NCBI GenBank assembly: GCA_002715725.1
Contig: PAZU01000034.1
Span: 1-48,474 of the forward strand
Reading direction: 5' to 3'
Origin: Methanobacteriota archaeon
Lineage (GTDB): Archaea; Thermoplasmatota; Poseidoniia; Poseidoniales; Poseidoniaceae
DNA: 48,474 bases
Shown here: positions 2,453-35,656 of the stretch, piece by piece
Layout of the letters: every line of letters begins with the position of its first letter
How positions within the stretch are numbered: the first letter of the stretch is position 1
Notes under the pieces: generated by a model
Told to the model about the DNA's origin: nothing
Seen by the model: only the letters and a program-made list of their open reading frames with translations
Databases searched by the model: none
Made by a program: the position numbers and the translations under genes

Positions 2453-3145
2453 TTAATGATCAATAAGGGCAAAGTTTTGGTCGATCTCACCGAATGCCAA
2501 GGAGTCATTGACATCGACTGGTAGACCGAGTTTGTCTGCTTCTGCTTGGTCTTTAACGACTCGAGCAGAGCGTGGAAAATCTTTGGAGTTAATCATATGG
2601 TCGAAGCGACCACCCCAACTAGCGTTGAGTCTGAAATTGTCAGGTTTTTTGACATCTTTGAATAAAGGAAGATTTTTCGTATAGGCGTAATGAATTAAGT
2701 TGGGTAACTCCTGGGTCATGATAAAGACTGCATCTCTGTACTTAGGTAGATAAAAATCTCCTGCGACATGCCATCTAAATAATTTGGCTTTTTTGATGAG
2801 ACTTTTGTAATTGAACTCCAGAGAAAGAAGCATCAGGTCGACTATTTCATGAATAGATAGACCATCGATAAGAGCTTTGTTGTTAGCACGAGCTCTACGA
2901 GTATTCGAGTAAACGACTTCGCCTTTAGCGGCATAGCAGATATACTCGTTGTCCACTCCCTTCTTTAAAGTGACTTTACCGTTAGCGTCAACGGCAGCCA
3001 TTGCCCAGCATTTGTCGGCACCAGGGCATGCACGACCAGCAGGAAGGCTGAAGTTAATAATATAAAGACCTTGCTGTTGCAGAGTCTTTTTGAACTTCAT
3101 GTTGGGAGGGCTGAATTTAAAATATGCAGGCCCCAATAAAGGCAT
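2453..3145 (-). CDS. GP88-like phage protein
   Basis: 230 aa. The N-terminal part has a conserved-looking Cys cluster, LPAGRACPGADKCWAMA (about residues 34-50), then a second Cys/Tyr-rich stretch (NEYICYAAKGEVVYSNT) and a core containing LFRWHVAGDFYLPKYRDAV. This arrangement resembles the 'Gene product 88' family seen in actinophages and cyanophages, whose biochemical role is not established. It is the first gene of the left-most operon: its ATG directly follows the right arm of the dyad at 3148-3167 with no Shine-Dalgarno sequence between. The family call is from memory of the motif; it could be a related Cys-containing family. Confidence 0.65.
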   Translation of the reverse strand: MPLLGPAYFKFSPPNMKFKKTLQQQGLYIINFSLPAGRACPGADKCWAMAAVDANGKVTLKKGVDNEYICYAAKGEVVYSNTRRARANNKALIDGLSIHEIVDLMLLSLEFNYKSLIKKAKLFRWHVAGDFYLPKYRDAVFIMTQELPNLIHYAYTKNLPLFKDVKKPDNFRLNASWGGRFDHMINSKDFPRSARVVKDQAEADKLGLPVDVNDSLAFGEIDQNFALIDH

Positions 3146-3147
3146 AA

Positions 3148-3167
3148 TGCATTGTTGAATTACTGCA
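3148..3167 (-). promoter_or_regulatory. start-proximal dyad, copy 1
   Basis: On the + strand: TGCATT, GTTGAATT, ACTGCA. It sits 2 nt upstream of the ATG of the GP88-like gene and directly downstream (in transcription) of an intrinsic terminator. One of ten 20-bp copies; see findings. Confidence 0.8.
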
Positions 3168-3168
3168 T

Positions 3169-3202
3169 AAAAAAAACCCCTCCGCTATGCAGTACGGAGA
3201 GG
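3169..3202 (-). terminator. intrinsic terminator before dyad copy 1
   Basis: Read on the minus strand, a GC-rich stem (CTCCG / CGGAG, extended by flanking C/G pairs) with a 10-nt loop is followed by eight T. It would end the operon of 3363-6087 immediately before the next dyad. Confidence 0.8.
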
Positions 3203-3362
3203 TTTAAGAAATTGTTCACTTCCCAAGGAGAGAGTAACTCAACTTTATGTATTTGTAAAGTAAAAGACTGAAATCCTCTGAGCTCCACCAAACCCAGAGG
3301 ATCTAGCTTGGGCTTACAAGGAGTACCCCCTTTACTCTCTTAGCACTCCAATGCCAATAAAC
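3203..3362. other. noncoding gap with a perfect 8-bp hairpin
   Basis: No convincing ORF lies in this 160-base gap. It contains an inverted repeat ATCCTCTG (3272-3279) / CAGAGGAT (3294-3301) with a 14-nt loop and no adjacent T-run. It is probably transcribed as the 3' untranslated region of the 3363-6087 operon and may act as an RNA-stability or processing hairpin. Confidence 0.45.
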
Positions 3363-5189: not shown

Positions 5190-5456
5190 TTAAGAATTGA
5201 GGGTGGTAATCATTTCATCGATGAGTAACTCTATTCGAGTCACTTTGGGTCGATGAATTGTGGGAACTTCTTGTTTCATGCTTTGAACATGAGACTTGAT
5301 GTACTTCAAGTTAGGTAGGACACCTCCTGGTGGAAGTTCCTGCTTGGTGATTTCTTGGAGTAAATGTTTTTGCCTGTATTGAGACAGGCTTGTTGGAGGA
5401 ACTGAATCAGGGATTTCCAAAATCTCTCCGTTAATTGTGTGTATGTGACTATTCAT
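5190..5456 (-). CDS. hypothetical protein
   Basis: 88 aa (MNSHIHTINGEILEIPDSVP...). A Pro-rich middle (PPTSLSQYRQKHLLQ) is followed by a basic helical C-terminus. It overlaps the upstream gene by 8 nt and is part of the operon starting at the dyad at 6105. Unrecognised. Confidence 0.65.
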   Translation of the reverse strand: MNSHIHTINGEILEIPDSVPPTSLSQYRQKHLLQEITKQELPPGGVLPNLKYIKSHVQSMKQEVPTIHRPKVTRIELLIDEMITTLNS

Positions 5457-6087
5457 CAGAAACTGATTGTAAGAAAGGAGCTGGTTGGTTTAATGAAGCA
5501 GCGAGATCATTAACTTGAGATTGGAAAGCCATGAGTTCTCTGTCTGCTTGTTTGAATCGCAACTGATCGTTGCCAAGGAAACAATCAATGAAGGTACCTT
5601 TGAACGTGGTTTTTAAGCCAGTACTTGGGTTAACAACTTCACGTCCTTCTCCTTTTCTTGCATACAATGTGCCTGATATATCTTCTAAGTCAAGGTTAGA
5701 TAAGATAATTCGTTGTACTAGCTCGTGAAGAGCACCAACGAGGCAGGCAGCATGATTTTGCACGAGGATCTTACCGTTACTTGTTGAACTGCCATTGCAT
5801 TTAAGTTTGATTACTGACAGTCTTGTTTGGCGATCTTCAGTTGGCTCAAGAAAAGCAAATCTGAAGTAAGGACATGAGACGCCTTGGCTTGTATGCCAAT
5901 CAACTCCAATAATGGGTTTACCAATGAAGCTGATACCTTCGTCTGGAGCGAGAGTAAACTCTGGACTACCAGCTTTAGTACCCCAGCCAAACCATTGGGC
6001 GTTAAGATCTAGTCCATAAGTTTGGATCTTTTGGTTAGGTCTCGTAGGATGAATACCTGTTGGAGGTTGAACAATTGCAGAGCTCAT
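5449..6087 (-). CDS. hypothetical protein, first gene of operon
   Basis: 212 aa (MSSAIVQPPTGIHPTRPNQK...). Beta-rich N-terminal two-thirds with a Cys-containing core (GVSCPYFRFAFLEPTEDRQT), helical C-terminus. The position at the head of the operon with the DUF932-like gene and the beta-rich core would be compatible with a single-strand DNA-binding or recombination accessory role, but no motif proves this. The start lies 17 nt downstream of dyad copy 2. Confidence 0.7.
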   Translation of the reverse strand: MSSAIVQPPTGIHPTRPNQKIQTYGLDLNAQWFGWGTKAGSPEFTLAPDEGISFIGKPIIGVDWHTSQGVSCPYFRFAFLEPTEDRQTRLSVIKLKCNGSSTSNGKILVQNHAACLVGALHELVQRIILSNLDLEDISGTLYARKGEGREVVNPSTGLKTTFKGTFIDCFLGNDQLRFKQADRELMAFQSQVNDLAASLNQPAPFLQSVSDE

Positions 6088-6104
6088 AAACGAAGCAGAA
6101 ATAA

Positions 6105-6124
6105 TGCACAGTTGAATGTTTGCA
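6105..6124 (-). promoter_or_regulatory. start-proximal dyad, copy 2 (divergent intergenic region)
   Basis: On the + strand TGCACA, GTTGAATG, TTTGCA: the conserved GTTGA core with TGCA at both ends but imperfect arms. It lies between the divergent 5449-6087 gene and the Dps-like gene, so it could influence both. An adjacent TTTGCAAA palindrome (6119-6126) overlaps it. Confidence 0.65.
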
Positions 6125-6163
6125 AACTTAAGAACCTAAACTAAAGTCAATAGCAGCCAACCT

Positions 6164-8556: not shown

Positions 8557-8753
8557 TTTATGGAAAAATGTGATGGAATAAAAAGATCCACGATTGTATA
8601 TAGGTCACGTAGGCTGTAAACCACAGACTGACCTACTTTTAAATCGGGGAATAGTTCAGGGATGAACTTCATAGCCTCTTGTGAGACTGGAGTAAGAGTA
8701 ACTTCACTGGCTCCTTTGGTTGTAGACGCAAAGAAGTCATATTGTTCACTCAT
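8157..8753 (-). CDS. hypothetical protein, 5' part credible, 3' part overlaps 7867-8556
   Basis: 198 aa. The first 65 residues (MSEQYDFFASTTKGASEVTL through FIPSHFSIKW) look like ordinary protein and are the only coding option for 8557-8753. The remaining 133 residues, in a frame overlapping the 7867-8556 gene for 400 nt, are Pro/Ser/Lys-rich and may be a shadow. The true product may therefore be a short protein, a genuine overlap, or the 5' half of a frameshifted gene. Confidence 0.5.
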   Translation of the reverse strand: MSEQYDFFASTTKGASEVTLTPVSQEAMKFIPELFPDLKVGQSVVYSLRDLYTIVDLFIPSHFSIKWLPPLRPPSSSSPRTPSSAPSQLRGKTASTMPITTPQPKTEEGENAPSASPKASKTMSKLGNPSVLTAHPSQDLDTLLASNTMRDTSVPCSYLTTSNKKATKRWKKVLRSYQHLSLPKDGEMQTVLLQLPNQ

Positions 8754-9436
8754 TCAACTCTCCATTGGCGCTCTTGGATGAATTCAACTCCTTCATATGA
8801 TGGTGGTTCTGTCTTGTTCTTTTGAGCTGCTTTGAAAGCATCTTTGAGTGATTGTTTGTTGACTGTTGTTTTAGTCCTTTTGAATTCATCTGGCAAACTA
8901 TCAGGATCGCATAAGTATTCGTCAACATGCACTGATGAGGTGATCATGGATTTAATAGTATGCATAGGCAATCTGTAGTTAGTTAATTTGTTGTCATCGT
9001 TAATGATTGTTCTAAACAATCTGATGACTAACTCCTGTAACCGATGAGCCTTAGTTAACTCTGGGATAGCTAGCTTCTTCAGCCTGTCTGCTTCTGCTTT
9101 CTTTGCATTAGCCATTGCTATCAAAGCAAACGAGAAGTTAAGTAGGTCTGTAGCCTTGTTCTCGAAATTCTCCTTATCTGCTAGATATACTTCAATCGCA
9201 CTGACTGCTGTCTGCCTCTTAACAGGATCGTCACTCTCCAGATCAACTATTGCTTGGTCTAGGGCTTTGAGTGAGATCTGATGTTGCAGAGCTAAGTCGA
9301 ATGAGCTGATTCGGTGCCTTAGTTCTTTCGATAGTACCTTCGAAGTAGTCACTGGAGTAGATGTTGAGGCAGTGGTTTCCTGCGTCGATTTCACAGTCGA
9401 AGTCTTCGACCCAGGCGAGGTTTGTTTTGAGGTCAT
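8750..9436 (-). CDS. hypothetical helical protein
   Basis: 228 aa from ATG 9436-9434. The N-terminus is Ser/Thr-rich low complexity where it overlaps the 9243-9500 gene; from about residue 45 it is strongly helical (LRHRISSFDLALQHQISLKA; then AMANAKKAEADRLKKLAIPE), with a basic C-terminus. It overlaps the next gene by 4 nt (ATGA). Coiled-coil-like character but no recognised family. The real start could lie downstream at an alternative codon. Confidence 0.65.
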   Translation of the reverse strand: MTSKQTSPGSKTSTVKSTQETTASTSTPVTTSKVLSKELRHRISSFDLALQHQISLKALDQAIVDLESDDPVKRQTAVSAIEVYLADKENFENKATDLLNFSFALIAMANAKKAEADRLKKLAIPELTKAHRLQELVIRLFRTIINDDNKLTNYRLPMHTIKSMITSSVHVDEYLCDPDSLPDEFKRTKTTVNKQSLKDAFKAAQKNKTEPPSYEGVEFIQERQWRVE

Positions 9437-9500
9437 GAATAAATAGGCGTTTGAAGTCGCCACGAAAGGGGTTAATTGTATACCGATCTTCAGGATGCAT
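9243..9500 (-). CDS. hypothetical protein, long overlap with next gene
   Basis: 85 aa from ATG 9500-9498 (MHPEDRYTINPFRGDFKRLF). The sequence through NHCLNIYSSDYFEG looks like a real small globular protein; the last 25 residues overlap low-complexity sequence of the 8750-9436 gene in a different frame. Its start overlaps the stop of 9490-9666. Confidence 0.55.
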   Translation of the reverse strand: MHPEDRYTINPFRGDFKRLFIHDLKTNLAWVEDFDCEIDAGNHCLNIYSSDYFEGTIERTKAPNQLIRLSSATSDLTQSPRPSNS

Positions 9501-9666
9501 AAAGTTTCCTGTTGATTGTGTTAATGAGTGTTTCAATCTTTCCTTGATTTTTTGAGTCTCCCGAAGATCGTAAAGTTGCTTGAGATTGTTTGATGGCATC
9601 AATAAGTTCAAGCAGGTGTTGACTGCGTGGACTATCCGCAACAGGATTACATTCATTTATATTCAT
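9490..9666 (-). CDS. hypothetical small helical protein
   Basis: 58 aa, ATG 9666-9664, stop TGA 9492-9490. Opens MNINECNPVADSPRSQHLLE and continues as an amphipathic helix to KIETLINTINRKLYAS. It overlaps the next start (9500), typical of coupling here. Unrecognised. Confidence 0.55.
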   Translation of the reverse strand: MNINECNPVADSPRSQHLLELIDAIKQSQATLRSSGDSKNQGKIETLINTINRKLYAS

Positions 9667-9764
9667 AATTAAATATGCTGCTTGCGAATGATGCCGCAGA
9701 AATCAAGGATTGGGTAGAGCTGGCGCTGTCATGTCAGCAGAACGACAACACCAGCATCATTTGG
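9667..9764. other. 98-base noncoding gap
   Basis: No ORF. Contains an interrupted inverted repeat GCTGG...CCAGC (minus strand) around a GCTG-N6-CAGC dyad near 9726-9739, possibly a transcript-processing or attenuating hairpin between the first gene of this operon (9765-10178) and the rest. No T-run follows it. Confidence 0.35.
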
Positions 9765-10178
9765 TTACGCGGTTGCTTGCACGTCAACAACGTCTTCAGA
9801 CTCAGCATTGTTGATCTCTAGATCTAACTTCTGACGTCTGAGTTCTTCCTCGGCTTTGTTGATAGCACGTAGCTTTGCTCTTGCTGCAATCTCCTCGGCT
9901 GAGTATGTAATCTTCTGTGGATTACCATTCTCATCACGACCCCAACCAATTGACTTGGCTGAGTATGTCTTGCCGTCAACAGAACATGTGTTGGTTGGAT
10001 CTTCATTGGCAACAAATTCAGCAAGCGTGTCAGATCTTGCACCAAGAGTGATGTGATCTTCCATGCAGGCTTTGGTGTGCCTGTTACGGCAGAAACCGAC
10101 TGATATTAAACCAGTCTTATTAAATACGTCTGGTCTGATGAAGAACGAGAACGATTTAGTACCCAAGTGTAGGGTCAT
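9765..10178 (-). CDS. hypothetical protein, start coupled to a leader ORF
   Basis: 137 aa from ATG 10178-10176 (MTLHLGTKSFSFFIRPDVFN). A beta-rich N-terminus with Cys residues (FCRNRHTKACMEDHITLG) is followed by a charged helical C-terminus (AEEIAARAKLRAINKAEEEL). A longer TTG-initiated frame to 10214 is possible but the ATG overlaps the stop of a 15-codon leader ORF. First full gene of the 6688-10178 operon downstream of dyad copy 3. Confidence 0.7.
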   Translation of the reverse strand: MTLHLGTKSFSFFIRPDVFNKTGLISVGFCRNRHTKACMEDHITLGARSDTLAEFVANEDPTNTCSVDGKTYSAKSIGWGRDENGNPQKITYSAEEIAARAKLRAINKAEEELRRQKLDLEINNAESEDVVDVQATA

Positions 10179-10222
10179 AGGTGTGTGGTAGTTGTGAACA
10201 GAAGATCTACGCAATAATACAT
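10175..10222 (-). CDS. candidate leader peptide
   Basis: 15 codons (MYYCVDLLFTTTTHL) from an ATG located just after dyad copy 3, exactly where the other dyads place a start codon. Its TGA overlaps the ATG of 9765-10178 (ATGA). The run of four Thr codons followed by His-Leu is attenuator-like, but there is no terminator between it and the gene, so a coupling role is more likely. Confidence 0.35.
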   Translation of the reverse strand: MYYCVDLLFTTTTHL

Positions 10223-10226
10223 AAAA

Positions 10227-10246
10227 TGCATTGTTGAATTAGATCA
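10227..10246 (-). promoter_or_regulatory. start-proximal dyad, copy 3
   Basis: On the + strand TGCATT, GTTGAATT, AGATCA: invariant core, degenerate distal arm. Sits 4 nt upstream of the leader ORF start and next to a hairpin with an A/T run at 10249-10275. Confidence 0.7.
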
Positions 10247-10248
10247 CC

Positions 10249-10275
10249 AAAAAAATACACCTAATATAGGTGTAT
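10249..10275 (-). terminator. hairpin with T-run before dyad copy 3
   Basis: ATACACC (10255-10261) / GGTGTAT (10269-10275) with a 7-nt loop; on the minus strand it is followed by seven T. It would stop transcripts running antisense through the 10294-11251 genes. The loop contains TAATAT, so it could also be an operator over a rightward -10 element for the gene at 10294. Confidence 0.6.
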
Positions 10276-10293
10276 CAATGGAAATTTTAGGGC

Positions 10294-10899
10294 GTGAACA
10301 TTAATCCACAGACTCGACTTAATCAGTTGCAACAGGCTATTAATAAAAGGTATTTAGCTGCTCAGAATGCTATACCTTCTGTTGGTCAGGCTGATGCTTC
10401 AGTTGCCCAAGCTTTGCGTGACGCAGGTGCAAACGTTAGTAACTTTGGTGCCAACAGAATTAATGCTCGGATTCAGGCTGCTACGGATGAGTTGATAGGA
10501 GAACAGGACAGACAACGTCTTGCAGAAGCAATTGTCGCAAGACAGAGTAGGAATCCTGTTCGGATGATTACTAATCCAGACGCTTTCTCAGCAGATGCTA
10601 AGGCAGTCTTGTCTCAAGTACAGCCAGGAGATAGAGCTTCTATCCAAGCGGCTTTACAAAATATACCTAACACCAGAGCAGATATAGCAGGAGCAGTGGG
10701 TGACGCTTTGACATTTTTAGGAGGATCTCCAGATCAAAGGACAGCGTCATTTAGACAAGCCCAAGTAGCCAGAGCAGGTGTAGCTGGTGTAGCGGGAGGT
10801 TCCGCTTTAACTGCAGCAGGTTCAGGATTACTTGACCTCATGGCTTATGTAGAGAGTACAGAGCAGCAAATTGTTGACAGAGCAAACACTTTAGTATGA
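10294..10899 (+). CDS. putative virion-associated Ala/Gly-rich helical protein
   Basis: 201 aa from GTG. Gln/Ala-rich helices (RLNQLQQAINKRYLAAQNAI; QRLAEAIVARQSRN) lead to a C-terminal Gly/Ala hydrophobic segment GVAGVAGGSALTAAGSGLL. The composition matches the proteins of the 14.6-26.6 kb block (membrane-active, small-residue-rich helices) rather than the surrounding leftward genes, so a minor virion or ejection protein is a reasonable guess. No family recognised. Confidence 0.7.
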   Translation: MNINPQTRLNQLQQAINKRYLAAQNAIPSVGQADASVAQALRDAGANVSNFGANRINARIQAATDELIGEQDRQRLAEAIVARQSRNPVRMITNPDAFSADAKAVLSQVQPGDRASIQAALQNIPNTRADIAGAVGDALTFLGGSPDQRTASFRQAQVARAGVAGVAGGSALTAAGSGLLDLMAYVESTEQQIVDRANTLV

Positions 10900-11051
10900 T
10901 CAAAAATCCAACTCCTGCTGAATGTGACATGGCAAGAAAGATCTTATATTCCATGGAGGCTCATGGGAATACTCATTCTTCTGCCTATATATCTCAGCAG
11001 GAGACTGTTCGGATTTGTCAAATAAGAGAGGAAAAAGAGTGGACGACCTAA
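10896..11051 (+). CDS. hypothetical small protein
   Basis: 51 aa, ATG 10896-10898 overlapping the stop of the preceding gene (ATGA), stop TAA 11049-11051. Opens MIKNPTPAECDMARKILYSM and ends RICQIREEKEWTT. Coupled position and continuous coding support it. Unrecognised. Confidence 0.5.
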   Translation: MIKNPTPAECDMARKILYSMEAHGNTHSSAYISQQETVRICQIREEKEWTT

Positions 11052-11251
11052 GATTTGCAGGAGAATTATTTGATCTCGACCTGAGGAAAGGTTTAAAGAA
11101 TAGCAATTTAGATAGCCTACGTAGAGGCTTTCGTAGTGACAAGCTAATACCTTCTTTACAGAAGACGTTTAACGAGATGTCTCCTGAAAATAGCGAGCCT
11201 GAATATACACTGTCAGGCAGTTATCAACCTGAAGTGGCATATGGGCTTTAA
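11015..11251 (+). CDS. hypothetical basic protein
   Basis: 78 aa from TTG (SNKRGKRVDDLRFAGELFDL...). Basic N-terminus, acidic/polar C-terminus. It overlaps the previous small ORF by 37 nt and the convergent 11248-11640 gene by 4 nt. Unrecognised; the TTG start is uncertain. Confidence 0.5.
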   Translation: MSNKRGKRVDDLRFAGELFDLDLRKGLKNSNLDSLRRGFRSDKLIPSLQKTFNEMSPENSEPEYTLSGSYQPEVAYGL

Positions 11252-11640
11252 GATTTAGTCTTCTTAAGAAAAGTACCGTCAGGCTTTTGTAGACGTCCAG
11301 TCTTGGTCTTGCCGACCCAATAGTCTTCTCTTCTAAAACTGTATAGATATTCAATAATTTGCATAAATGGCTTGTTCTTCTTTGCCCAAGACTCGTACCT
11401 AGCTGCTAGCTTCTTGATCTGCCAAAGGAAGCGAACAATAGGAGGTAAAAGCTTATGGCAAAGTTCTTGAGTGAAGCGAGCCATGAAATAACAGACAAAA
11501 AGAAATTGAGTAGAGAAATTTAAGAAGGATTCTTTGAAATTTTCGTACTTATTACTAGTGTCGTAGTTTGTTGGGTCATAGTCAACCAGTTCACCGGGCT
11601 GAACAGGTGCAATGTCCCACTTGGAATTAGGTGGTGTCAT
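11248..11640 (-). CDS. hypothetical protein with hydrophobic segment
   Basis: 130 aa. A polar N-terminus (MTPPNSKWDIAPVQPGELVD) precedes an aromatic hydrophobic stretch FSTQFLFVCYFMARFTQEL (about residues 42-60) and a very basic C-terminus. It could be a single-pass or peripheral membrane protein with a cytoplasmic basic tail. It is the left-most member of the dyad-cassette array; its start is 20 nt from dyad copy 4. Confidence 0.6.
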   Translation of the reverse strand: MTPPNSKWDIAPVQPGELVDYDPTNYDTSNKYENFKESFLNFSTQFLFVCYFMARFTQELCHKLLPPIVRFLWQIKKLAARYESWAKKNKPFMQIIEYLYSFRREDYWVGKTKTGRLQKPDGTFLKKTKS

Positions 11641-11660
11641 TTGAATAGTAAGTAGGAGGA

Positions 11661-11680
11661 CGCACTGTTGAGTTAGTGCA
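11661..11680 (-). promoter_or_regulatory. start-proximal dyad, copy 4
   Basis: On the + strand CGCACT, GTTGAGTT, AGTGCA. Both inner arm bases differ from the consensus TGCAGT...ACTGCA in a compensatory way (GCACT pairs with AGTGC), which argues that the pairing itself is conserved. Confidence 0.8.
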
Positions 11681-11682
11681 AT

Positions 11683-11708
11683 AAAAAAGCCCCACCCGAA
11701 GGTGGAGC
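11683..11708 (-). terminator. intrinsic terminator between cassettes
   Basis: Minus strand: GCTCCACC, TTCG loop, GGTGGGGC, then six T, ending directly at dyad copy 4. Ends the 11716-12158 cassette. Confidence 0.85.
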
Positions 11709-11715
11709 TGTGTAT

Positions 11716-11892
11716 CTATATGTGGGATTCATCAAGAGTGTCGTCTTCCATTAGACAGCTTGCGGCATAACCTTCTCTGTCTGGAATCTCGTCTTCTTCA
11801 TAAAGACTAGTAGTTAGGTGAGTACCTATTTGAACTGTCTTGCAGGGGTTGGCCTTCATAGGAAAGCCTTCGAAGCCACGTCGGTCACTCAT
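11716..11892 (-). CDS. hypothetical small acidic protein
   Basis: 58 aa, ATG 11892-11890, stop TAG 11718-11716. Opens MSDRRGFEGFPMKANPCKTV and ends in acidic sequence (CLMEDDTLDESHI). Start overlaps the stop of 11889-12158 (ATGA); a terminator follows. Second gene of a two-gene cassette. Confidence 0.6.
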   Translation of the reverse strand: MSDRRGFEGFPMKANPCKTVQIGTHLTTSLYEEDEIPDREGYAASCLMEDDTLDESHI

Positions 11893-12158
11893 GATTTCAC
11901 CTTCTGTTGCTGCTTAGCATACTGCTTTAACTTGGTCTCACAGTTATCAAGTTCACGAACCTTATCATCTGTATGTGAAAAGTAGCATTCGATAGCTCTA
12001 ATCATTTCACTATGTACACGTTCCAATCCTCTTGCATTAGATCGCTGCATAGCATCTATGAGTAGTAAGGCTTCTTTGGCTGACACATGACCAAATGGAA
12101 TCAAGGTTTCGGTGGACTGACCAGGCTGTGGCTGACCAGTTATGTCGTTGTAGTGCAT
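11889..12158 (-). CDS. hypothetical helical protein
   Basis: 89 aa (MHYNDITGQPQPGQSTETLI...), helical from residue 27 (AKEALLLIDAMQRSNARGLE) with a coiled-coil-like C-terminus (RELDNCETKLKQYAKQQQKV). Its ATG follows dyad copy 5 within 1 nt, with no Shine-Dalgarno. Unrecognised. Confidence 0.65.
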   Translation of the reverse strand: MHYNDITGQPQPGQSTETLIPFGHVSAKEALLLIDAMQRSNARGLERVHSEMIRAIECYFSHTDDKVRELDNCETKLKQYAKQQQKVKS

Positions 12159-12159
12159 G

Positions 12160-12179
12160 ACCAGTGTTGAGTTGGAGCA
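12160..12179 (-). promoter_or_regulatory. start-proximal dyad, copy 5 (degenerate arms)
   Basis: On the + strand ACCAGT, GTTGAGTT, GGAGCA. The GTTGAGTT core and spacing are kept but the arms do not pair, the most diverged copy. It is still sandwiched between a terminator and a start codon. Confidence 0.65.
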
Positions 12180-12181
12180 AT

Positions 12182-12211
12182 AAAAAAGCCACCCAGCCGA
12201 AGCTAGGTGGC
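12182..12211 (-). terminator. intrinsic terminator between cassettes
   Basis: Minus strand stem GCCACC/GGTGGC with inner GCT/AGC pairs and a tetraloop, followed by six T, directly before dyad copy 5. Confidence 0.85.
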
Positions 12212-12218
12212 ATATAAG

Positions 12219-12665
12219 TTACTTAGTGACAGGCTTGTCAAGACTAGATCTGATGATCTTGTAACTCTTAACTCTAAGAGCCTTGTACTGAGACTTCATG
12301 TAGCCTCCCATTAACTGTGGGTTAGAGGAAGGAACCCAGAAGCCTTTTAAGGCAACTTTGACCCACTGGCCTTTTTCTGAGTGCTTGGCTTGTAAATCAA
12401 GCAACTCTTGGGCTAGTGGAATACCGTTGTCACTAGCAATGAAGTTGTCGACAGGTAAGTCGATATTGATCTTCTGATCATTGAAGGTGTCAGTAGAACT
12501 GCAGCTAAGGAAGCCTTTGGCTTGGCGCTTAGCATTTTCACCTTGTCCAATCCACTCCTGTGTGTTCTTGAGCAGACCGACGATAACGACGTCATCATCG
12601 ATACGCTCTGGAGTAGCAGCCTTGGCGGATGCTTTTACAGGAGTTTTAGTTGGAGTTGCAACCAT
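12219..12665 (-). CDS. hypothetical protein, possible OB-like fold
   Basis: 148 aa from ATG 12665-12663 (MVATPTKTPVKASAKAATPE), chosen over the longer frame because the extra codons would read through the dyad and terminator. A Lys/Ala/Pro-rich tail of about 20 residues leads into a beta-rich domain (DDVVIVGLLKNTQEWIG ... KGQWVKVALKGFWVPSSNPQ) ending basic. The basic tail plus beta domain could be a nucleic-acid-binding protein; this is inference. Confidence 0.65.
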   Translation of the reverse strand: MVATPTKTPVKASAKAATPERIDDDVVIVGLLKNTQEWIGQGENAKRQAKGFLSCSSTDTFNDQKINIDLPVDNFIASDNGIPLAQELLDLQAKHSEKGQWVKVALKGFWVPSSNPQLMGGYMKSQYKALRVKSYKIIRSSLDKPVTK

Positions 12666-12688
12666 TTTTAGGTGGTGATAGAGAACAA

Positions 12689-12708
12689 TGCAGTGTTGAA
12701 TTACTGCA
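12689..12708 (-). promoter_or_regulatory. start-proximal dyad, copy 6 (perfect arms)
   Basis: On the + strand TGCAGT, GTTGAATT, ACTGCA: a perfect 6-bp inverted repeat around the 8-nt core. The start codon of 12219-12665 lies 23 nt further, after a CCACC stretch. Confidence 0.85.
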
Positions 12709-12710
12709 AT

Positions 12711-12743
12711 AAAAAGACCCCCACCAGCTAGAGCTGGCAGGGG
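12711..12743 (-). terminator. intrinsic terminator between cassettes
   Basis: Minus strand stem CCAGCT/AGCTGG extended by CCCC/GGGG, followed by a T-rich run, directly before dyad copy 6. Confidence 0.8.
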
Positions 12744-12762
12744 ATACATGGGGTAGGACGAC

Positions 12763-12942
12763 CTACTCGAGGAAGGCGGCTGGGTCGATACCGAAGGAAC
12801 GAGCTCGGAGGGCTACAGCAGACCTGTAGTTAAACTCGTCAGTGGTACCAACACTTGCCGCATAATTACTGGTAGCTCTAAGAAGGGAAGACAAAGCGTG
12901 ATCCTCTTGAGCAAGATACTCAGAAATTAAATCGTTAACCAT
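12763..12942 (-). CDS. hypothetical small protein
   Basis: 59 aa, ATG 12942-12940, stop TAG 12765-12763. Opens MVNDLISEYLAQEDHALSSL, helical, ending RARSFGIDPAAFLE. Bounded by terminator and dyad on both sides, so it is a one-gene cassette. Unrecognised. Confidence 0.65.
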   Translation of the reverse strand: MVNDLISEYLAQEDHALSSLLRATSNYAASVGTTDEFNYRSAVALRARSFGIDPAAFLE

Positions 12943-12963
12943 GGTGGTGGATAGAGAGAATAA

Positions 12964-12983
12964 TGCAGTGTTGAGTTACTGCA
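12964..12983 (-). promoter_or_regulatory. start-proximal dyad, copy 7 (perfect arms)
   Basis: On the + strand TGCAGT, GTTGAGTT, ACTGCA: perfect 6-bp arms. Start of 12763-12942 follows 21 nt downstream after CCACCACC. Confidence 0.85.
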
Positions 12984-12985
12984 CT

Positions 12986-13030
12986 AAAAATTCCCCCGAC
13001 CGACCTGAAGACCAGACCGACCGAGGGGAA
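12986..13030 (-). terminator. intrinsic terminator between cassettes
   Basis: Outer stem TTCCCC/GGGGAA with a GC-rich interior containing repeated GACCGACC, followed on the minus strand by five T before dyad copy 7. Confidence 0.7.
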
Positions 13031-13060
13031 CGTAGTGGATAAGGGGTAGTACTGATGTAC

Positions 13061-13216
13061 TTAAGCAGATAACTGAACCAAATCAACGAGATGACTAGGT
13101 TTGTTAGGTCCGCACAGGACGACCTCAAGCAAGAATGCTTCAGACTCTGCATCCTCTCTAGATCGATGGAAGCTAGAAAACTTCCTATCTAGGATGACTG
13201 CCCACAACTCATTCAT
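13061..13216 (-). CDS. hypothetical small protein
   Basis: 51 aa, ATG 13216-13214 (MNELWAVILDRKFSSFHRSR), stop TAA 13063-13061. The start directly follows dyad copy 8. The MNELWAVILDRKFSSF...EDAESEAFLLEVV pattern suggests a small beta-alpha domain. One-gene cassette; unrecognised. Confidence 0.65.
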   Translation of the reverse strand: MNELWAVILDRKFSSFHRSREDAESEAFLLEVVLCGPNKPSHLVDLVQLSA

Positions 13217-13218
13217 AA

Positions 13219-13238
13219 TGCACTGTTGAGTTACTACA
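13219..13238 (-). promoter_or_regulatory. start-proximal dyad, copy 8
   Basis: On the + strand TGCACT, GTTGAGTT, ACTACA. ATG follows the right arm after 2 nt. Confidence 0.75.
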
Positions 13239-13240
13239 TT

Positions 13241-13274
13241 AAAAAACCCCCATCCAGGAAGACCTAGACAGGGG
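13241..13274 (-). terminator. intrinsic terminator between cassettes
   Basis: Minus strand stem CCCC...GGGG with inner CCT/AGG pairs, followed by six T before dyad copy 8. Confidence 0.75.
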
Positions 13275-13281
13275 CTTTGGG

Positions 13282-13506
13282 TTATTGCTCTTGCTGCAAA
13301 TGCTTACCAACGTAGTAACCATTATCGCGGCAAAACTCAACTAAAGCCAGCTTCTGAGCGCGTTGATCGCCTCTCAAATACTCTGCGCCAGCGCATTGCA
13401 TCTGAGTAGAGGCAGACAAACCAGTCACAAGCTGGGTTATTAGCATGATTGTTCCCCAAGAGAAACAAAAAACACAAATAGGATAGAGAATCGAAGATGA
13501 TTTCAT
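13282..13506 (-). CDS. small membrane or exported protein
   Basis: 74 aa. A hydrophobic N-terminal segment (ILYPICVFCFSWGTIMLITQ, about residues 6-25) followed by LVTGLSASTQ resembles a signal peptide or a single transmembrane anchor. The remainder has two Cys (QCAGAEYL ... VEFCRDNGYY) that could form a disulfide outside the cytoplasm. One-gene cassette whose ATG abuts dyad copy 9. Confidence 0.7.
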   Translation of the reverse strand: MKSSSILYPICVFCFSWGTIMLITQLVTGLSASTQMQCAGAEYLRGDQRAQKLALVEFCRDNGYYVGKHLQQEQ

Positions 13507-13508
13507 AA

Positions 13509-13528
13509 TGCATTGTTGAATTAGTCCA
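13509..13528 (-). promoter_or_regulatory. start-proximal dyad, copy 9
   Basis: On the + strand TGCATT, GTTGAATT, AGTCCA. ATG of 13282-13506 follows after 2 nt. Confidence 0.75.
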
Positions 13529-13530
13529 AT

Positions 13531-13554
13531 AAAAAACCCTACCTTGCGGCAGGG
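13531..13554 (-). terminator. intrinsic terminator between cassettes
   Basis: Minus strand stem CCCT/AGGG with inner GG/CC pairs and a short loop, followed by six T before dyad copy 9. The stem overlaps the last codons of the 13539-13787 gene. Confidence 0.75.
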
Positions 13555-13787
13555 AGTTTCTTGACCTTCTTAGTGGTGTATCTGGGATGACCAGCTAGGA
13601 TCTGGGTCTTCTTCCAGTGCTCTTTGGCTGTTTCAAAGGACATCAACAGCGAGCACTGAGCATACACCTTATTGCGTGGATTCTTAGCCTTAGGCAGGTA
13701 AGTTATCACGCAAGTTTTAAATTCCTTGTTCAAGGTATATACATACTTAGCGGTGCTAGTTGTAATACTCTTAACTTGGATAGACAT
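13539..13787 (-). CDS. hypothetical basic protein
   Basis: 82 aa (MSIQVKSITTSTAKYVYTLN...), rich in Lys and beta-branched residues, with a strongly basic C-terminus (RYTTKKVKKLPAAR). Its stop lies in the following terminator. First gene of the leftward array: ATG abuts dyad copy 10, beyond which there is no gene on this strand. Possibly nucleic-acid binding; unrecognised. Confidence 0.65.
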   Translation of the reverse strand: MSIQVKSITTSTAKYVYTLNKEFKTCVITYLPKAKNPRNKVYAQCSLLMSFETAKEHWKKTQILAGHPRYTTKKVKKLPAAR

Positions 13788-13789
13788 AA

Positions 13790-13809
13790 TGCATTGTTGA
13801 ATTACTGCA
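13790..13809 (-). promoter_or_regulatory. start-proximal dyad, copy 10 (head of the leftward array)
   Basis: On the + strand TGCATT, GTTGAATT, ACTGCA. No gene and no terminator lie upstream, so this copy cannot be a read-through or processing site for an upstream message in the way the others could; it supports a promoter/operator role for the whole motif. Confidence 0.8.
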
Positions 13810-13922
13810 CTAACATCGCACTAACATAAAAACTTGCATTATCTCCAAAAAGTAGCTATATTTGTCAACTAATCTACTTAACAGTAGGCGTGAACGTTAC
13901 ATTGTAAACAAGTAACTCAAAG

Positions 13923-14052
13923 AGCGAGCGATTAGCGAGCGTAATGCGAACACAAAACGAGCATAGCGAGTGCATGGGGAGCTTGGGTAAAATGAGCTTA
14001 ATTGCGTAGCAATTCGAAGCGAATCATTATAAGCAAGCGAGTGAAGCGAGCG
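13923..14052. repeat. iteron-like cluster of AGCGAG[CT]G
   Basis: Five copies at 13923, 13934, 13965, 14036 and 14045, all in the same orientation, with further partial copies (GCGAA, GCGTAG) between. No DnaA box (TTATNCACA) seen. Direct iterons in a gene-free region suggest binding sites for an initiator or regulator. Confidence 0.6.
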
Positions 14053-14189
14053 CAGCGGTTAGCAACTGGGTACGTGTTAGCCTAGTGTCACAGGGTTTGG
14101 CGCCCTCGAGAGAGCGAAGAAGGGGCAGTGCGATAAATGCGCTATGTATGCGGGGATGCGTGGGATAACTGTTGCTAACTCAGGCTCGC
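14046..14189. ncRNA. putative structured RNA / large stem-loop domain
   Basis: GCGAGC (14046-14051) pairs with GCTCGC (14184-14189), and after a short internal loop GTTAGCAAC (14058-14066) pairs perfectly with GTTGCTAAC (14171-14179). These 15 bp enclose about 104 nt containing smaller hairpins (AGGG...CCCT near 14092-14105). Strand and expression cannot be read from sequence; it could equally be a DNA structure at an origin. No match to tRNA, tmRNA, 6S or RNase P signatures that I can recognise. Confidence 0.4.
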
Positions 14190-14297
14190 AAGGGAAACAA
14201 TAGATTATGCAAAAGATAACTATGGATTACACCCTTGAACGCGGTCGCGTAACACGGCGCAACGCAAACTTCCGCAGCTAAAGATTTAAACGTAGTC

Positions 14298-14352
14298 ACA
14301 TAAGTCTTCTGTTGTTAAACAATTAACTAACATAAGTCTTCTGCTGTTTAAC
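14298..14352. repeat. 23-bp direct repeat, 32-bp period
   Basis: ACATAAGTCTTCTG followed by [T/C]-containing TGTT-AAC appears at 14298-14320 and 14330-14352 with two differences. It lies in the gene-free region, on the rightward side of the structured domain. Confidence 0.6.
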
Positions 14353-14623
14353 ATTTGCTGCGTCGCTTCATTACATATGCCCTTCTTTTTTTTGTTTGAG
14401 CGGTGCTTCAACTAGGCGAGGGTGTTTGATGTATATCTCGCTGAGCAATATTTTTCGAGATTTTCCCGCGAGGCCCGCATAAGGGGGCATAAAACGCTTC
14501 ATGAGGAAAAAACGCGACAAAGAGCTCCGACGCCCTTAACCATCGCTTAACATCAGAAAACCAGGGCTAGCACCTTTAGTAACTCGGTAGACTTGTAGTA
14601 CAGATATAACTCGTAGAAATAAG

Positions 14624-16777
14624 ATGCTTGGCGGTATCGGCAACTTTAGGTTTTGGGATGATAAAGACGACAGACGTCGGCCCGAAGGCGAGCAACTCAA
14701 ACGCCTGCAAAAGCTAGTAGAAGAAAGCGCGGCACCATATAGAGGGCAGACTGCAGCAGAAAATTTAGACGAAGTAGAAAGAAGAGGTAGGCAAGGCTTA
14801 ATATTTGGTTCTCCACAGCAGCAACAGCCCGAAAATACTCGTAGAACTATCAATCCAGACACAGGCACTTATGTAATGCCTGAAAAAACTCGTGCAACAC
14901 CTTCTGGAGATTTTGCATTTACTCCAAATAGGGGTGCGGGTGGTCGTATTATTCAACCTAATAAAGAAAACAACACGGCAGGCGGCGTTTTAACACCAAT
15001 CCCTGCTAGAAAATCTGACGAAATTTCTCCATCTGTCCCTCCAAGGGGAAATTTTCCAGACATAGGCGAATATTCTGGTAGAACAGGCAAGCAAATGCCT
15101 TACAAAATGGTCGGCGTTTACAGACCTAATAAAGAACCTGTACCTACTAAAGACTTTTTCTCAGAAACACAAGCAAAATATCCCACTCAGAGAGATCCAA
15201 GAATAGAAAAAGCTCTGAGAGAAGTGCGACAAGAGGCTTTACGACCAAAAGAAGACTTAAAACCACAAGAAGAACTGCTAAAAAGGTATAAAAACTGGGA
15301 TTACGGCCCATCTGCGGCGGAAGGTAGGCAAATAGGACCTGCAGAGACTCGTTCGCAGCAATTAAGTGCAGCAATGCCAGAGTTAAGTGGAGAAGGAGTT
15401 AACTATTTATTAGACAATCAAAGAGTTATACAAGATCCATCAACGCGCCCCGAAGGTGTCTTAGCAAGATTAGGCAGATCCGGAGAGATTGGTCCTGAGT
15501 CAGGAGTGGCGACTTCTTATGACGATCCTGAAGGGAAGTATTTAAGAGCTGATTCCGAAAGATTCAAGGAAGTTCCCACTGTTCAGATGGTTCAAGACTA
15601 TGATCAACTTGCAAAAATAGGAGTAGCCCCTAATGACAAGCTGAAACAGTCACGGACTGCGGTTGGTCCTTATGTTGTACCTGCTTTGATGGCTCCGCCT
15701 GGCGAATTCTACGACCTGCAAACTCAAAAGATCGAACCGCTCGGGTCAACGCCTGAAGAAACGCGCAGACAAAAAATGATGGTTGCCGAGGGTACTGGTG
15801 TCAGGCAGCCTGCTACTTATACTGTCGGTCGAAAAGGAACAAGACGCTTTAACCCAACAGCAGTCAGGTTGGAATTGCTTGATCCAAGTGCAAGACTACC
15901 GATTGATATTGCTGAGAAATATGGTTTGTCTTATTTCGTCCCAGATAGGACTAGTGGCAGACCTCAAAGTCAAGCACAAACATTAGGAGAAGCAATTAAT
16001 GCGATAATTCGTGGAAATTTAGCTCCTGTAGTATCTATTCCAAGCTCAAATTTGGATGTGAGAGCTGGTAAATATGAAAATTCTCCTAATCAATTCTTTT
16101 TAAACGACGAAAGAGTAATTCCTTTAGGACGTGGTCAGTCAGATGGAGAAACAACAGTAAGACTTGGAACTAGTCGCATAACTAATCAAGGATATATCAC
16201 AATTAATAACTTATTAGAAGATATAACTGGTATGCAATTAGTTTCAAACTTCAAATTGCAAGATCCAATATTGGGTGACATGCAAAAACGATTGATGCAA
16301 GTTACAAAGCCAGCTAAGCAATACCAAAAAGGAAAACCAATGGTTACCATTACTGGCAATCCTTTACAAGACTTACTTGATCAGTTACAAGAAGGAAGAG
16401 ATATAGATCGAATGCTTGGAAGTGCAGAAAGAGTGAACTTCTCTCCTTTAGCGACAGATCGTTTTCCTCTAGAACGAGATGCGTTCAGAGATAAGATGGG
16501 ACTCAAAGAACGCATGATTCAAATAAGAAGAGACGCTAGAGCCGCAGGAGCTCCTAATCTGTACACTCCTGAAGCCCAGAACGCCCCTGTAAACCCCAGC
16601 CCGGACGCAAATATAAATAGGAAACCTTCGGTGAGTCAGGCCAACGTCCCAGCAGGAATGAGACCTACAACTAACGAGTATGTTGATCTGCTTGTGCGAG
16701 GAAAAACTGAAGAATTACTGAACAAATATTCAGATATGGACTTTGTTCAAAAACTACGTCGTCTCAGAGGTCGTTAA
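14624..16777 (+). CDS. large putative virion protein
   Basis: 717 aa, the first gene of the rightward block. Polar, Pro/Arg/Gln-rich and probably largely extended in the first 300 residues (for example SPQQQQPENTRRTINPDTG), with a more ordered central part (PATYTVGRKGTRRFNPTAVR, YITINNLLEDITGMQLVSNF) and a basic C-terminus (DFVQKLRRLRGR). No catalytic motif, signal peptide or membrane helix. Size, position and composition suit an internal virion, tail or ejection protein of a cyanophage. The start could lie at a nearby in-frame codon. Confidence 0.7.
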   Translation: MLGGIGNFRFWDDKDDRRRPEGEQLKRLQKLVEESAAPYRGQTAAENLDEVERRGRQGLIFGSPQQQQPENTRRTINPDTGTYVMPEKTRATPSGDFAFTPNRGAGGRIIQPNKENNTAGGVLTPIPARKSDEISPSVPPRGNFPDIGEYSGRTGKQMPYKMVGVYRPNKEPVPTKDFFSETQAKYPTQRDPRIEKALREVRQEALRPKEDLKPQEELLKRYKNWDYGPSAAEGRQIGPAETRSQQLSAAMPELSGEGVNYLLDNQRVIQDPSTRPEGVLARLGRSGEIGPESGVATSYDDPEGKYLRADSERFKEVPTVQMVQDYDQLAKIGVAPNDKLKQSRTAVGPYVVPALMAPPGEFYDLQTQKIEPLGSTPEETRRQKMMVAEGTGVRQPATYTVGRKGTRRFNPTAVRLELLDPSARLPIDIAEKYGLSYFVPDRTSGRPQSQAQTLGEAINAIIRGNLAPVVSIPSSNLDVRAGKYENSPNQFFLNDERVIPLGRGQSDGETTVRLGTSRITNQGYITINNLLEDITGMQLVSNFKLQDPILGDMQKRLMQVTKPAKQYQKGKPMVTITGNPLQDLLDQLQEGRDIDRMLGSAERVNFSPLATDRFPLERDAFRDKMGLKERMIQIRRDARAAGAPNLYTPEAQNAPVNPSPDANINRKPSVSQANVPAGMRPTTNEYVDLLVRGKTEELLNKYSDMDFVQKLRRLRGR

Positions 16778-27412: not shown

Positions 27413-28046
27413 TCTTGATGGCGTCATTGAGTTATTTCCTACTCGTATTTTTAAATTTCGGATAGATCCTCGAATTATTAAGGATGCCGTAAAACATAAG
27501 AAAAAAGGAGGAGAAAACCATACTTTTGATGAAGTTTTTAATCACCCAGAATTCCTCTCTCTACAAGAAGAAGTTCTTAAGAGTGTTACCCCTTATTGCC
27601 CAGGCGGTATCCCTAGATTGCGACATATGCGTTCACAACAAAAACATGATCGCATAGGTGAATGGAAAATTGTTTCTGGTTGGATCAATAATCAATCACC
27701 AGGTCAAGAAGGATTTAAATATCATCCTCACGCAGAATCTTTTATGTCTTGTGTCGTTTATTTAGAAGGAGAAAATATGTCTATCAATTTTAGAGATGAA
27801 GCTAGGCTTGCCCCTGCCGACGAAACTGGTAGAGCATCTTACGACTTACTTATACGTCACCATTGGCACGAGGATGCCACTATCCCCGCCGAAGTAGGAG
27901 ATGTAATATTATTCCCAAGCTACCTACTTCACAAGCCAAATAAGAACGAAACAGACATTGACAGGATTAGTATTGCTTATAATTTAATGCCTACTCGACT
28001 TAATCCTCCAACCACCCCTCCCTGGTCTATAAAATTCGATGTATAG
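27405..28046 (+). CDS. 2OG-Fe(II) oxygenase family protein
   Basis: 213 aa from GTG, overlapping the upstream gene by 8 nt. The double-stranded beta-helix motifs are visible: FKYHPHAESFMSCVVYLEGE (first metal His region), VGDVILFPSYLLHKPNKNE (distal His) and DRISIAYNLMP (Arg binding 2-oxoglutarate). These enzymes couple 2-oxoglutarate decarboxylation to hydroxylation of protein, nucleic acid or small molecules. This belongs to the prolyl-4-hydroxylase-like group common in T4-like cyanophages. The first Asp/Glu of the HxD/E triad is probably in the HAE segment. Substrate unknown. Confidence 0.8.
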   Translation: MADLDGVIELFPTRIFKFRIDPRIIKDAVKHKKKGGENHTFDEVFNHPEFLSLQEEVLKSVTPYCPGGIPRLRHMRSQQKHDRIGEWKIVSGWINNQSPGQEGFKYHPHAESFMSCVVYLEGENMSINFRDEARLAPADETGRASYDLLIRHHWHEDATIPAEVGDVILFPSYLLHKPNKNETDIDRISIAYNLMPTRLNPPTTPPWSIKFDV

Positions 28047-34946: not shown

Positions 34947-34976
34947 CCCTCGTTGTGAGAACAACGGGGGTTTTTT
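34947..34976 (+). terminator. psbA intrinsic terminator
   Basis: CCCTCGTTGT, GAGA loop, ACAACGGGGG, followed by six T (34971-34976). Strong rho-independent terminator. Confidence 0.92.
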
Positions 34977-34977
34977 A

Positions 34978-35007
34978 TTGGAAACCTGTGCAAAACATTG
35001 CTATATT
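34978..35007 (+). promoter_or_regulatory. candidate sigma70-type promoter
   Basis: TTGGAA (34978-34983) and TATATT (35002-35007) separated by 18 nt, immediately after the psbA terminator and about 20 nt before the ATG at 35027. Confidence 0.45.
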
Positions 35008-35026
35008 CGTAATATTAAACAAGAAG

Positions 35027-35656
35027 ATGATGGATCTCAGAAAGAAAAGAACAGTACAAGAACTAGATTATGGCATTAAAGTATACCAAAACTTCTGTAG
35101 AGATTCTGATTTTTACCATTTCAGCCAATTAATCCAACAATTACCTTGGACAATAGATAATATATATAATTCTGAAGTTCCTGAAGAATTTCAAGACCCA
35201 GATTACCAACCTCATAAAGATATTGAAATAGACCCTAAATACAACACTCAAATGAGTTATTTTTTATTACATCCAGATCAAGCAAAATTCCCTACAAAAG
35301 AATTCGAACATGACATGTTTGGTTTTATTGTGGATGCCATAAGGAATATATTCGATGTTTATGCGTGGGCTAAGATTAAAGCCAACACCACGTTTTGCAC
35401 AAACAAGATAATAGAACACGGCTTTCACGTGGACAGAATGCCTTTAACATCGTTAAGCGAAAATCAAACTACAGCTATCCTGCATCTAGACGACTCCAAT
35501 GGATACACAAACTTTTATAAAGACAATATTATAATCCCTTCTAAATCAAACCAATTAATAACTTTCCCTTCCAATTTATATCACAGAGGTACAACCTGCA
35601 CTGATCAAGATAAGCGCCAAGTTCTCAATTTGAATTTCTTCGGAACTCCATGCTGA
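35027..35656 (+). CDS. 2OG-Fe(II) oxygenase family protein
   Basis: 209 aa from ATG 35027 (MMDLRKKRTVQELDYGIKVY); the longer frame from 34955 is rejected because it would read out of the psbA terminator. The active-site residues are visible: HVD (FHVDRMPLTSL), distal His in FPSNLYHRGTTC and Arg in KRQVLNLNFFG. Soluble. It overlaps the next oxygenase gene by 7 nt, so the two are a tandem, probably co-translated pair downstream of psbA. Confidence 0.78.
   Translation: MMDLRKKRTVQELDYGIKVYQNFCRDSDFYHFSQLIQQLPWTIDNIYNSEVPEEFQDPDYQPHKDIEIDPKYNTQMSYFLLHPDQAKFPTKEFEHDMFGFIVDAIRNIFDVYAWAKIKANTTFCTNKIIEHGFHVDRMPLTSLSENQTTAILHLDDSNGYTNFYKDNIIIPSKSNQLITFPSNLYHRGTTCTDQDKRQVLNLNFFGTPC

Follow-up and report, generated by a model that had tools for sequence, protein, structure and literature searches.

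In a stretch of 48,474 nt (contig PAZU01000034.1, hereafter the window), an element of about 27 nt is found in front of one small gene after another between positions 10,227 and 13,809, which raises the question of what this element is and whether the genes that follow it form exchangeable units. A first-pass annotation had proposed an array of cassettes, each with its own terminator, 20-bp dyad and start, open to gain, loss and shuffling. Comparison of the array between relatives demonstrates that cassettes are exchanged: whole units differ, and the junctions lie mostly within or at the edges of the block made up of a terminator and the following copy of the element (the motif). We consider it reasonably likely that a phage related to Synechococcus phage S-EIV1 here keeps a series of early transcription units, each independent of the others and exchangeable at this repeated terminator+motif block; "early" is a presumptive label, given for the position of the array and its orientation opposite to the structural genes.

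The window belongs to the S-EIV1-like lineage, its portal-like and terminase proteins being homologous to those of that lineage. Among 50,697 phage records, the portal-like protein (29890-32127) had a single match, in S-EIV1 (43.6%), and the region 9000-15000 had no DNA-level relatives in the phage collection. Relatives of the window were taken from IMG/VR, where 137 of 144 candidate stretches were confirmed and 80 kept, the closest being a 74.6-kb contig, G001 (95%).

A directional motif shared within the lineage

The window has ten copies of the element, each of them on the minus strand (positions 3148, 6105, 10227, 11661, 12162, 12689, 12964, 13219, 13509 and 13790). Seven are consecutive at 11.6-13.8 kb, and these, as well as the copy at 10.2 kb, stand where the first-pass annotation had placed them. 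A 20-nt pattern derived from the window copies themselves, with up to 3 mismatches allowed, matched the window 9 times versus 0.46 expected, a number reached in 0 of 100 shuffles, and a 22-nt pattern gave 9 matches versus 0.06 expected. A hairpin with a T-run occurs at 6/6 junctions of the seven array units, confirming the intrinsic terminators that had been proposed between consecutive units, and terminator-like sites in the 15-kb region number 25, versus 10.8 (sd 3.8) in shuffles. The genes are named c7 to c0 along the minus strand. In a comparison of the window with G001, the pooled ratio of nonsynonymous to synonymous divergence (pN/pS) of the eight array genes was 0.17 (singly 0.03-0.55, highest in the short c5 and c4), so the small open reading frames (ORFs) behave as real genes, in agreement with the proposal that each element precedes one or two of them.

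The consensus of the motif, TTTWKTGYMCYHHTTCARCAGTGCATT, is asymmetric. An iterated weight matrix detected 115 distinct sites in 13 of the 17 contigs scanned, which were also those used to train it (the window, 15 IMG/VR contigs and S-EIV1), compared with 8, 3 and 4 matches in three runs on first-order Markov sequence and 1 in reversed sequence. Placements fall on one strand in 119 of 121 cases across 12 contigs, and the matrix scan of G001 found nine copies, all at 21-32 kb of its 74.6 kb. Motif letters tend to be constant per genome, including copies far from the array, as would be expected if a single factor read them all: G004 has T/A at positions 18/23 in 12/12 sites, three of which are 2-9 kb off the array, and G020 has G at position 18 in 13/14 sites. 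Between the window and G001, ten motif pairs differ at 7/270 positions and the 45 nt upstream of eight copies at 27/360, with synonymous sites of the array differing at 17%.

The copies had been described as ten dyads, which is right as to their number and not as to their nature. A palindromic operator or hairpin was rejected as a general, essential feature, the pair 9/22 being C-T in 49 of 105 distinct sites. Judged by eye, the dyad is flawed in several copies of the window (10227, 12162 and 13509), as it is in many copies of relatives, and over the 105 sites, counted with their relatedness not controlled, pairing in register 31 exceeds independence modestly (Watson-Crick at 8/23 in 57 sites versus 41.1 expected, at 10/21 in 78 versus 69.0, and at 12/19 in 9 versus 4.3). 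The conserved feature is better called a directional motif than a dyad.

The unit was also sought in virome genomes, as the first-pass annotation had suggested. A strict form of the motif pattern, which by design misses the window's own clade, was found in 17 stretches on 14 IMG/VR viral contigs, and the portal of the lineage is carried by 14/14 of them; these contigs are no census, and the result speaks for restriction to the lineage, not for abundance. No such unit was found in S-EIV1, G018, G023 and G027, of which only S-EIV1 is informative, since the other three contigs match none of the early-gene queries. As a separate observation, S-EIV1 (L007) has paired intergenic repeats of its own before small genes, with CCCTGGGC...GTAAGTCCCAGGA variants and CTGATCCGTCAAAGCGGGT (upstream of 40711 and 41408, and upstream of 43419 and 43732), possibly a different cassette-type element.

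Cassette exchange between related arrays

Gene content was compared in two array maps, the first of 12 contigs and the second of the window and of 21 loci retrieved by means of the convergent gene at 11015-11251, which is conserved. ORFs were chosen mechanically in these maps (longest ORF from the first start), so that some frames are wrong, as with F19 for c5, and the F6 ORFs are doubtful; cassette families were built by single linkage, by which distant homologs may be joined or split. Backbone genes keep a constant order where present (c3-like, c2, c1, c0, a 212-aa gene and a GP88-family gene), and the heads of their units carry the motif in most genomes. The variable cassettes, two to nine per array, precede the c3-like gene, and 62 of the 198 proteins in the second map are singletons, near-duplicate loci included. 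The first-pass annotation had named a fixed gene order without exchange as evidence against its proposal: such an order was found for the backbone, whereas the cassettes before c3 are not fixed and are exchanged between relatives.

Close pairs of loci reveal how units differ. In L168 and L180, whose flanking cassettes are 95% identical, one locus has a pair of cassettes (162 and 130 aa) where the other has a single unrelated cassette (142 aa); identity stops at the start codon 3' of the motif and returns at the terminator of the next block. Between L169 and L172, a 99-aa unit (375 bp from one motif to the next) is found in L172 alone, and the L169 block is a hybrid, matching one L172 block on its left flank and the following L172 block on its right, which places the junction inside the terminator+motif; a second difference between these loci is one unit versus two. 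Two single units of L162 are absent from L163, a locus that ends close to a contig edge, one of them with a hybrid junction inside the motif. With respect to the window, c4 is swapped for an unrelated 180-aa gene in G002/L161. G001 has the same array content as the window, and there the c2 unit alone is a diverged allele, with synonymous differences at 35/91 in c2 versus 25/272 in c3-c7 (p=1e-9) and a divergent stretch that begins at the 12.17-kb motif and ends at ~11.75 kb, shortly ahead of the terminator. Cassette F21 is shared by L162 and L180, where its neighbours differ. All differences between the compared arrays were indels and replacements, and no gene reordering was seen; the gain and loss that had been proposed, together with replacement, were recovered in close pairs.

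A candidate core promoter and its rivals

Directly upstream of the motif, a hairpin (<= -7 kcal/mol) and at least 4 T are present in 83 of 108 sites, a set in which identical sites are counted once and from which a plus-strand match at 8740 of the window and contig G003 are excluded. On the other side, the first in-frame ATG lies within 5 nt 3' of the motif in 57 of 112 distinct cassettes (14 overlap its last bases), at 6-15 nt in 7, at 16-30 nt in 26, at 31-60 nt in 12 and beyond in 10; with near-duplicate loci retained, the count within 5 nt is 67/136, and both sets of counts depend on the mechanical ORF choice of the cassette maps. In half of the units the motif is framed so tightly, by a terminator on one side and an ATG no more than 5 nt away on the other, that a separate promoter would not fit, and the scatter of the ATG distances fits a translation-initiation element poorly. 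The heads at 13785 and 6100, located between divergent ORFs and without a terminator, need a promoter, and both keep the motif.

We rejected a sigma70 promoter as the identity of the motif, as its hexamers are rarer than in shuffles: TATAAT-like hexamers were found near the motif in 7 of 108 sites versus 25.2 in mononucleotide shuffles, and TTGACA-like hexamers in 21 of 108 versus 27.8. T7-type RNA polymerase (PF00940) was found in 0 of 15 records, several of them fragments, and in 0 of 4 further virus records, the P-SSP7 control being positive (2.7e-69), and sigma70 region 2 (PF04542) in 0 of 11 records, compared with 10 of 14 control genomes. For 89 of the 122 ORFs of G001, Pfam and PHROG gave no polymerase or sigma factor among the 25 families listed of 35 and of 105. 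The lack of sigma70 boxes, together with these negative searches for a T7-type polymerase or sigma factor, points to an unfamiliar initiation mechanism.

Given the lack of room in half of the units and the motif kept at heads without a terminator, and as no sigma70 pair is kept across lineages, the motif itself would most simply be the core promoter, one without sigma70 boxes and with an activity that is presumptive. Its reader would be a trans-acting factor or polymerase, neither of the T7 type nor dependent on plain sigma70 -35/-10 recognition. A unit would open with the promoter-like motif and continue with a leader (0-60 nt in most cases), a small gene or two and an intrinsic terminator, and the terminator of one unit with the motif of the next would form the ~50-nt block repeated between units, at which homologous recombination could insert, delete or swap cassettes with their neighbours undisturbed. 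Because swaps leave the neighbours intact, the array would serve as an exchangeable store of small accessory genes. A bolder version, which we put forward tentatively and with some doubt, is that the motif represents a promoter class of its own, with a phage-specific reader unlike any catalogued polymerase or sigma factor and often leaderless mRNAs, and that the 50-nt block is also the recombination joint by which the early region becomes a recombinase-free cassette array, in a lineage of aquatic phages that is widely distributed.

Several observations weigh against independent units with a promoter in the exchanged block. S-EIV1, the sole relative with a name that was identified, lacks the motif throughout its complete genome, and the PF00940 and PF04542 searches disclosed no reader for the motif. 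The terminator criteria are missed by 25 of the 108 sites (8 lack the T-run, 8 the hairpin and 9 both), and among the nine with neither, seven are the first site of an array and five start with GTTARTG. Two of the differences between close pairs fall away from a clear motif: a 320-aa ORF in L169, missing from L172, has none nearby, and a 145-aa gene in L168, missing from L180, stands beside a below-threshold copy only. As for the constancy of letters per genome, all four occur at position 18 in G006 (8 A, 3 T, 2 C, 1 G), and in G002 the copy upstream of the 212-aa gene differs from the array copies of the same genome. Ahead of the array head of the window stands a TTGACA...GATAAT pair (19 nt), from which a long transcript could originate and which, by eye, is not kept in G002, G004 and G021. 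Finally, the partial dyad displays weak covariation within genomes, strongest at register 31 (z 2.8, best of 36 registers, with shuffling inside genomes), leaving room for an RNA hairpin role.

These last two points favor an RNA-level element, by which transcription would proceed from an upstream promoter through leaky terminators or by antitermination, and the motif, as a hairpin or loop in the leader, would control translation, processing or antitermination; the same is true of copies at operon heads that can be drawn by eye as longer hairpins (G020 4010, G021 14417, G025 68957). We regard it as unlikely, given that the distance from motif to start is bimodal, from overlap to >60 nt, that the C-T mismatch at 9/22 is so frequent, that each of many successive terminators would need antitermination, and that nothing in the window attains the gathering score of an Rfam family. 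Repeated sites of one orientation near starts, with a partial dyad and letters often constant per genome, would also suit an array of operators, comparable to the stoperators of mycobacteriophage L5, at which a phage or host regulator would time the units and the promoter would lie elsewhere. Operators are rather improbable, because half of the units leave such a promoter no space between the terminator and the start codon, the consensus is asymmetric and conserved sigma70 boxes adjoining the motif are lacking. An integron-like site, at which a recombinase would insert and excise cassettes, would account for the two events with junctions inside the terminator+motif block, and we give it very little credence: a tyrosine recombinase exceeds the cut-off in only 2 of 10 motif-bearing records (G025 and G028; serine recombinases were not searched), the G006 match is weak and sub-cut-off, none is present in the swap partners G036 (L169) and G004 (L162), and the motif heads backbone genes too.

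Two observations on leaders and promoters were made apart from the array of the window. The longer leaders of many relatives (e.g. G020 82495, G021 14417) often have GCTGCTTCGTTT or a similar sequence before the ATG, and in leaders of this type a Shine-Dalgarno sequence is not visible by eye. On the plus strand of the window, 34971-35030 holds a terminator and then a sigma70-like TTGGAA...TATATT, likewise in G018 and G023, a terminator-then-promoter layout like that presumed for the array, with another promoter type.

Known systems, array layout and gene products

The reading of the array as transcription units exchangeable at the terminator+motif block was compared with known phage systems. 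Early promoters of T4-type phages are of the host sigma70 type. In these phages, promoter early stem-loops (PeSLs; Arbiol 2010 and Comeau 2014, as cited in PMC4503421 and PMC3950731) are, according to the excerpts available, composite promoter-terminator blocks repeated between genes of plastic regions and held to mediate shuffling between related phages. Whole-gene exchange between relatives at repeated blocks is found here as well. The block of the window lineage has a terminator at 83/108 sites, and its promoter part would be the motif. On the other hand, the motif of the window lacks sigma70 boxes and often has the ATG directly 3' of it, and the phage is S-EIV1-like and not a T4-like myovirus, with gene order kept in its lineage and no reordering seen. 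The unit acts like a PeSL but lacks the sigma70-type promoter and the T4-like genome.

The SAS/ESAS of cluster K mycobacteriophages (PMC3203893, PMC12699233) are described in the accessible parts of these papers as repeated start-associated elements, in part imperfect inverted repeats, mostly of one orientation and in the non-structural half of the genome; neither a terminator in the unit nor cassette exchange is mentioned there for cluster K. The 13-bp SAS, GGGATAGGAGCCC, is absent from the window (one 2-mismatch match, 0.42 expected). In the haloarchaeal virus HGTV-1, an inverted-repeat motif before most ORFs of one genome side has been likened to PeSLs in the portion of PMC3950731 consulted, which differs in that its element is TATA-box-like and its host archaeal. 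The host-takeover module of SPO1 has 26 mostly small early genes and several promoters (PMC6873191, in excerpt); its genes lie in operons, and growth-attenuating or shutoff functions have been demonstrated for them, whereas for the array genes such functions would be conjecture. ESAS and HGTV-1 are looser parallels and the SPO1 module a functional one. In the literature covered in part on S-EIV1 promoters and terminators and on cyanophage cassettes, a coverage that does not extend to the S-EIV1 genome paper, no description of the unit was found, and the text of PMC5332604 mentions neither promoter nor terminator, which agrees with the first-pass annotation that no cyanophage system of this form is described; the kind itself is described in T4-type phages as PeSLs, with parallels in mycobacteriophages and a haloarchaeal virus. 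What is new is a cassette array with a motif outside the sigma70 type in the S-EIV1-like lineage.

The group containing S-EIV1 makes up 3.3% of cyanophage content in one ocean survey (PMC5332604, consulted in part). For phages this common, whose small early genes carry no functional assignment, the present work locates a store of their small early genes and the route of their exchange, and provides a practical handle, as such genes can be listed as every gene 3' of a motif. With junctions observed directly, it carries the PeSL concept over to a phage lineage unrelated to the T4 type, and swapping at a shared signal may explain the quick change of the small accessory gene set in such viruses.

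Along the minus strand, on which all of the following features lie, the array opens with motif copy 1 (13785..13814), which has no upstream terminator and carries GTTAGTG in place of the T-run. The ATG of c7 (82 aa, 13539..13787; pN/pS 0.14) is directly 3' of it, and c7 is followed by the c7/c6 terminator, a hairpin with a T-run (13537..13554), copy 2 (13504..13533) and c6 (74 aa, 13282..13506), and then by the c6/c5 terminator (13247..13261), copy 3 (13214..13243) and c5 (51 aa, 13061..13216; pN/pS 0.55, from few changes). The c5/c4 terminator, with a 16-pair stem (12993..13027), leads to copy 4 (12959..12988) and c4 (59 aa, 12763..12942), and the c4/c3 terminator (12718..12743) to copy 5 (12684..12713) and c3 (148 aa, 12219..12665), the first backbone cassette. 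Downstream of the c3/c2 terminator (12188..12211) and the degenerate copy 6 (12155..12184), c2a (89 aa, 11889..12158) and c2b (58 aa, 11716..11892) overlap and share one unit (12158-11716), the one diverged from G001; units are modular as first annotated, and this one holds two genes. The c2/c1 terminator (11688..11709), copy 7 (11656..11685) and c1 (130 aa, 11248..11640; pN/pS 0.03) complete the consecutive series.

Three plus-strand ORFs cut off the 10.2-kb unit from this series. Its terminator-like hairpin (10254..10276), between divergent genes, would stop antisense readthrough and not an adjacent minus-strand gene; it is followed by copy 8 (10222..10251) and c0 (9765..10178), with ATG 10178 taken as the start on the basis of the G002 relative, whose alignment with the longer ORF (9765-10214) begins at residue 13 of that ORF. 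Copy 9 (6100..6129), between divergent ORFs and without a terminator, heads the 212-aa gene (5449-6087), and copy 10 (3143..3172), with a terminator upstream (3174..3205), heads the GP88-family gene (2453-3145). At the array heads of the window (13815-13850), G002 and G004-G006, (G)ATGTTAGT-like copies ~11 nt apart lie directly upstream of the motif or run into it.

The products had been thought to look like host-takeover or anti-defence proteins, a proposal that received no support from PADLOC (0 matches for 8 array proteins), PHROG (best E for array genes not below 0.09) or Pfam (none of the eight genes over cut-off). Sub-cut-off Pfam matches of c1 (E 0.042, 0.046) and c7 (E 0.028, an animal-virus family) were rejected as chance. 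The structure model of c3, which has no Pfam or PDB sequence match, suggests an OB-fold, the b1-b2-b3-a-b4-b5 barrel of SSB and PriB proteins (pLDDT 67.8, moderate confidence). In the PDB it comes closest to PriB (best match, E 6e-5; TM 0.48/0.66) and SSB, and c3 may accordingly be an SSB/PriB-type protein. Relatives of c3 in G+C-rich contigs have C-terminal tails such as EEVPF, presumably resembling the SSB tip. By eye, c6 and its relatives are hydrophobic at the N-terminus, and two Cys do not vary among the 8 aligned proteins; the clear relatives are in L160, L161, L168 and L180 (family F4), and possible ones in L174, L175 and L179 (F9, 27-30% identity) were joined manually. Alignment A3 excludes five F0 members (L162, L163, L167, L168, L180) and the duplicate L176, and includes five F5 members added manually. 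The array mixes a conserved and probably DNA-binding protein with fast-changing small proteins, which might reasonably be guessed to act in host takeover or anti-defence.

The window is contig C34 of a bin (G000) of 57 contigs and 1.94 Mb. The photosystem II core family PF00421 was not found in this bin, which is 76% complete, and three of its contigs (C34, C30 and C44) carry the portal of the lineage, so these phage contigs are probably mis-binned and the bin is uninformative on the host, for which S-EIV1 offers an analogy. C30 has a second array, with eight motif copies in succession (L184). The array-bearing L180 (NHEF01000002.1) has the GTDB label "Gammaproteobacteria bacterium TMED78" and looks like a phage contig of the lineage. 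The tyrosine recombinases over cut-off (PF00589) lie at 30064-30486 in G025 and at 27537-27971 in G028, two G+C-rich relatives, and some members of the lineage may be temperate. Between the array and the plus-strand operon of the window, 13860-14480 is without a long ORF; GAGCGAGCGA-type repeats occur there, as does a direct repeat of 27 nt (14298, 14330).

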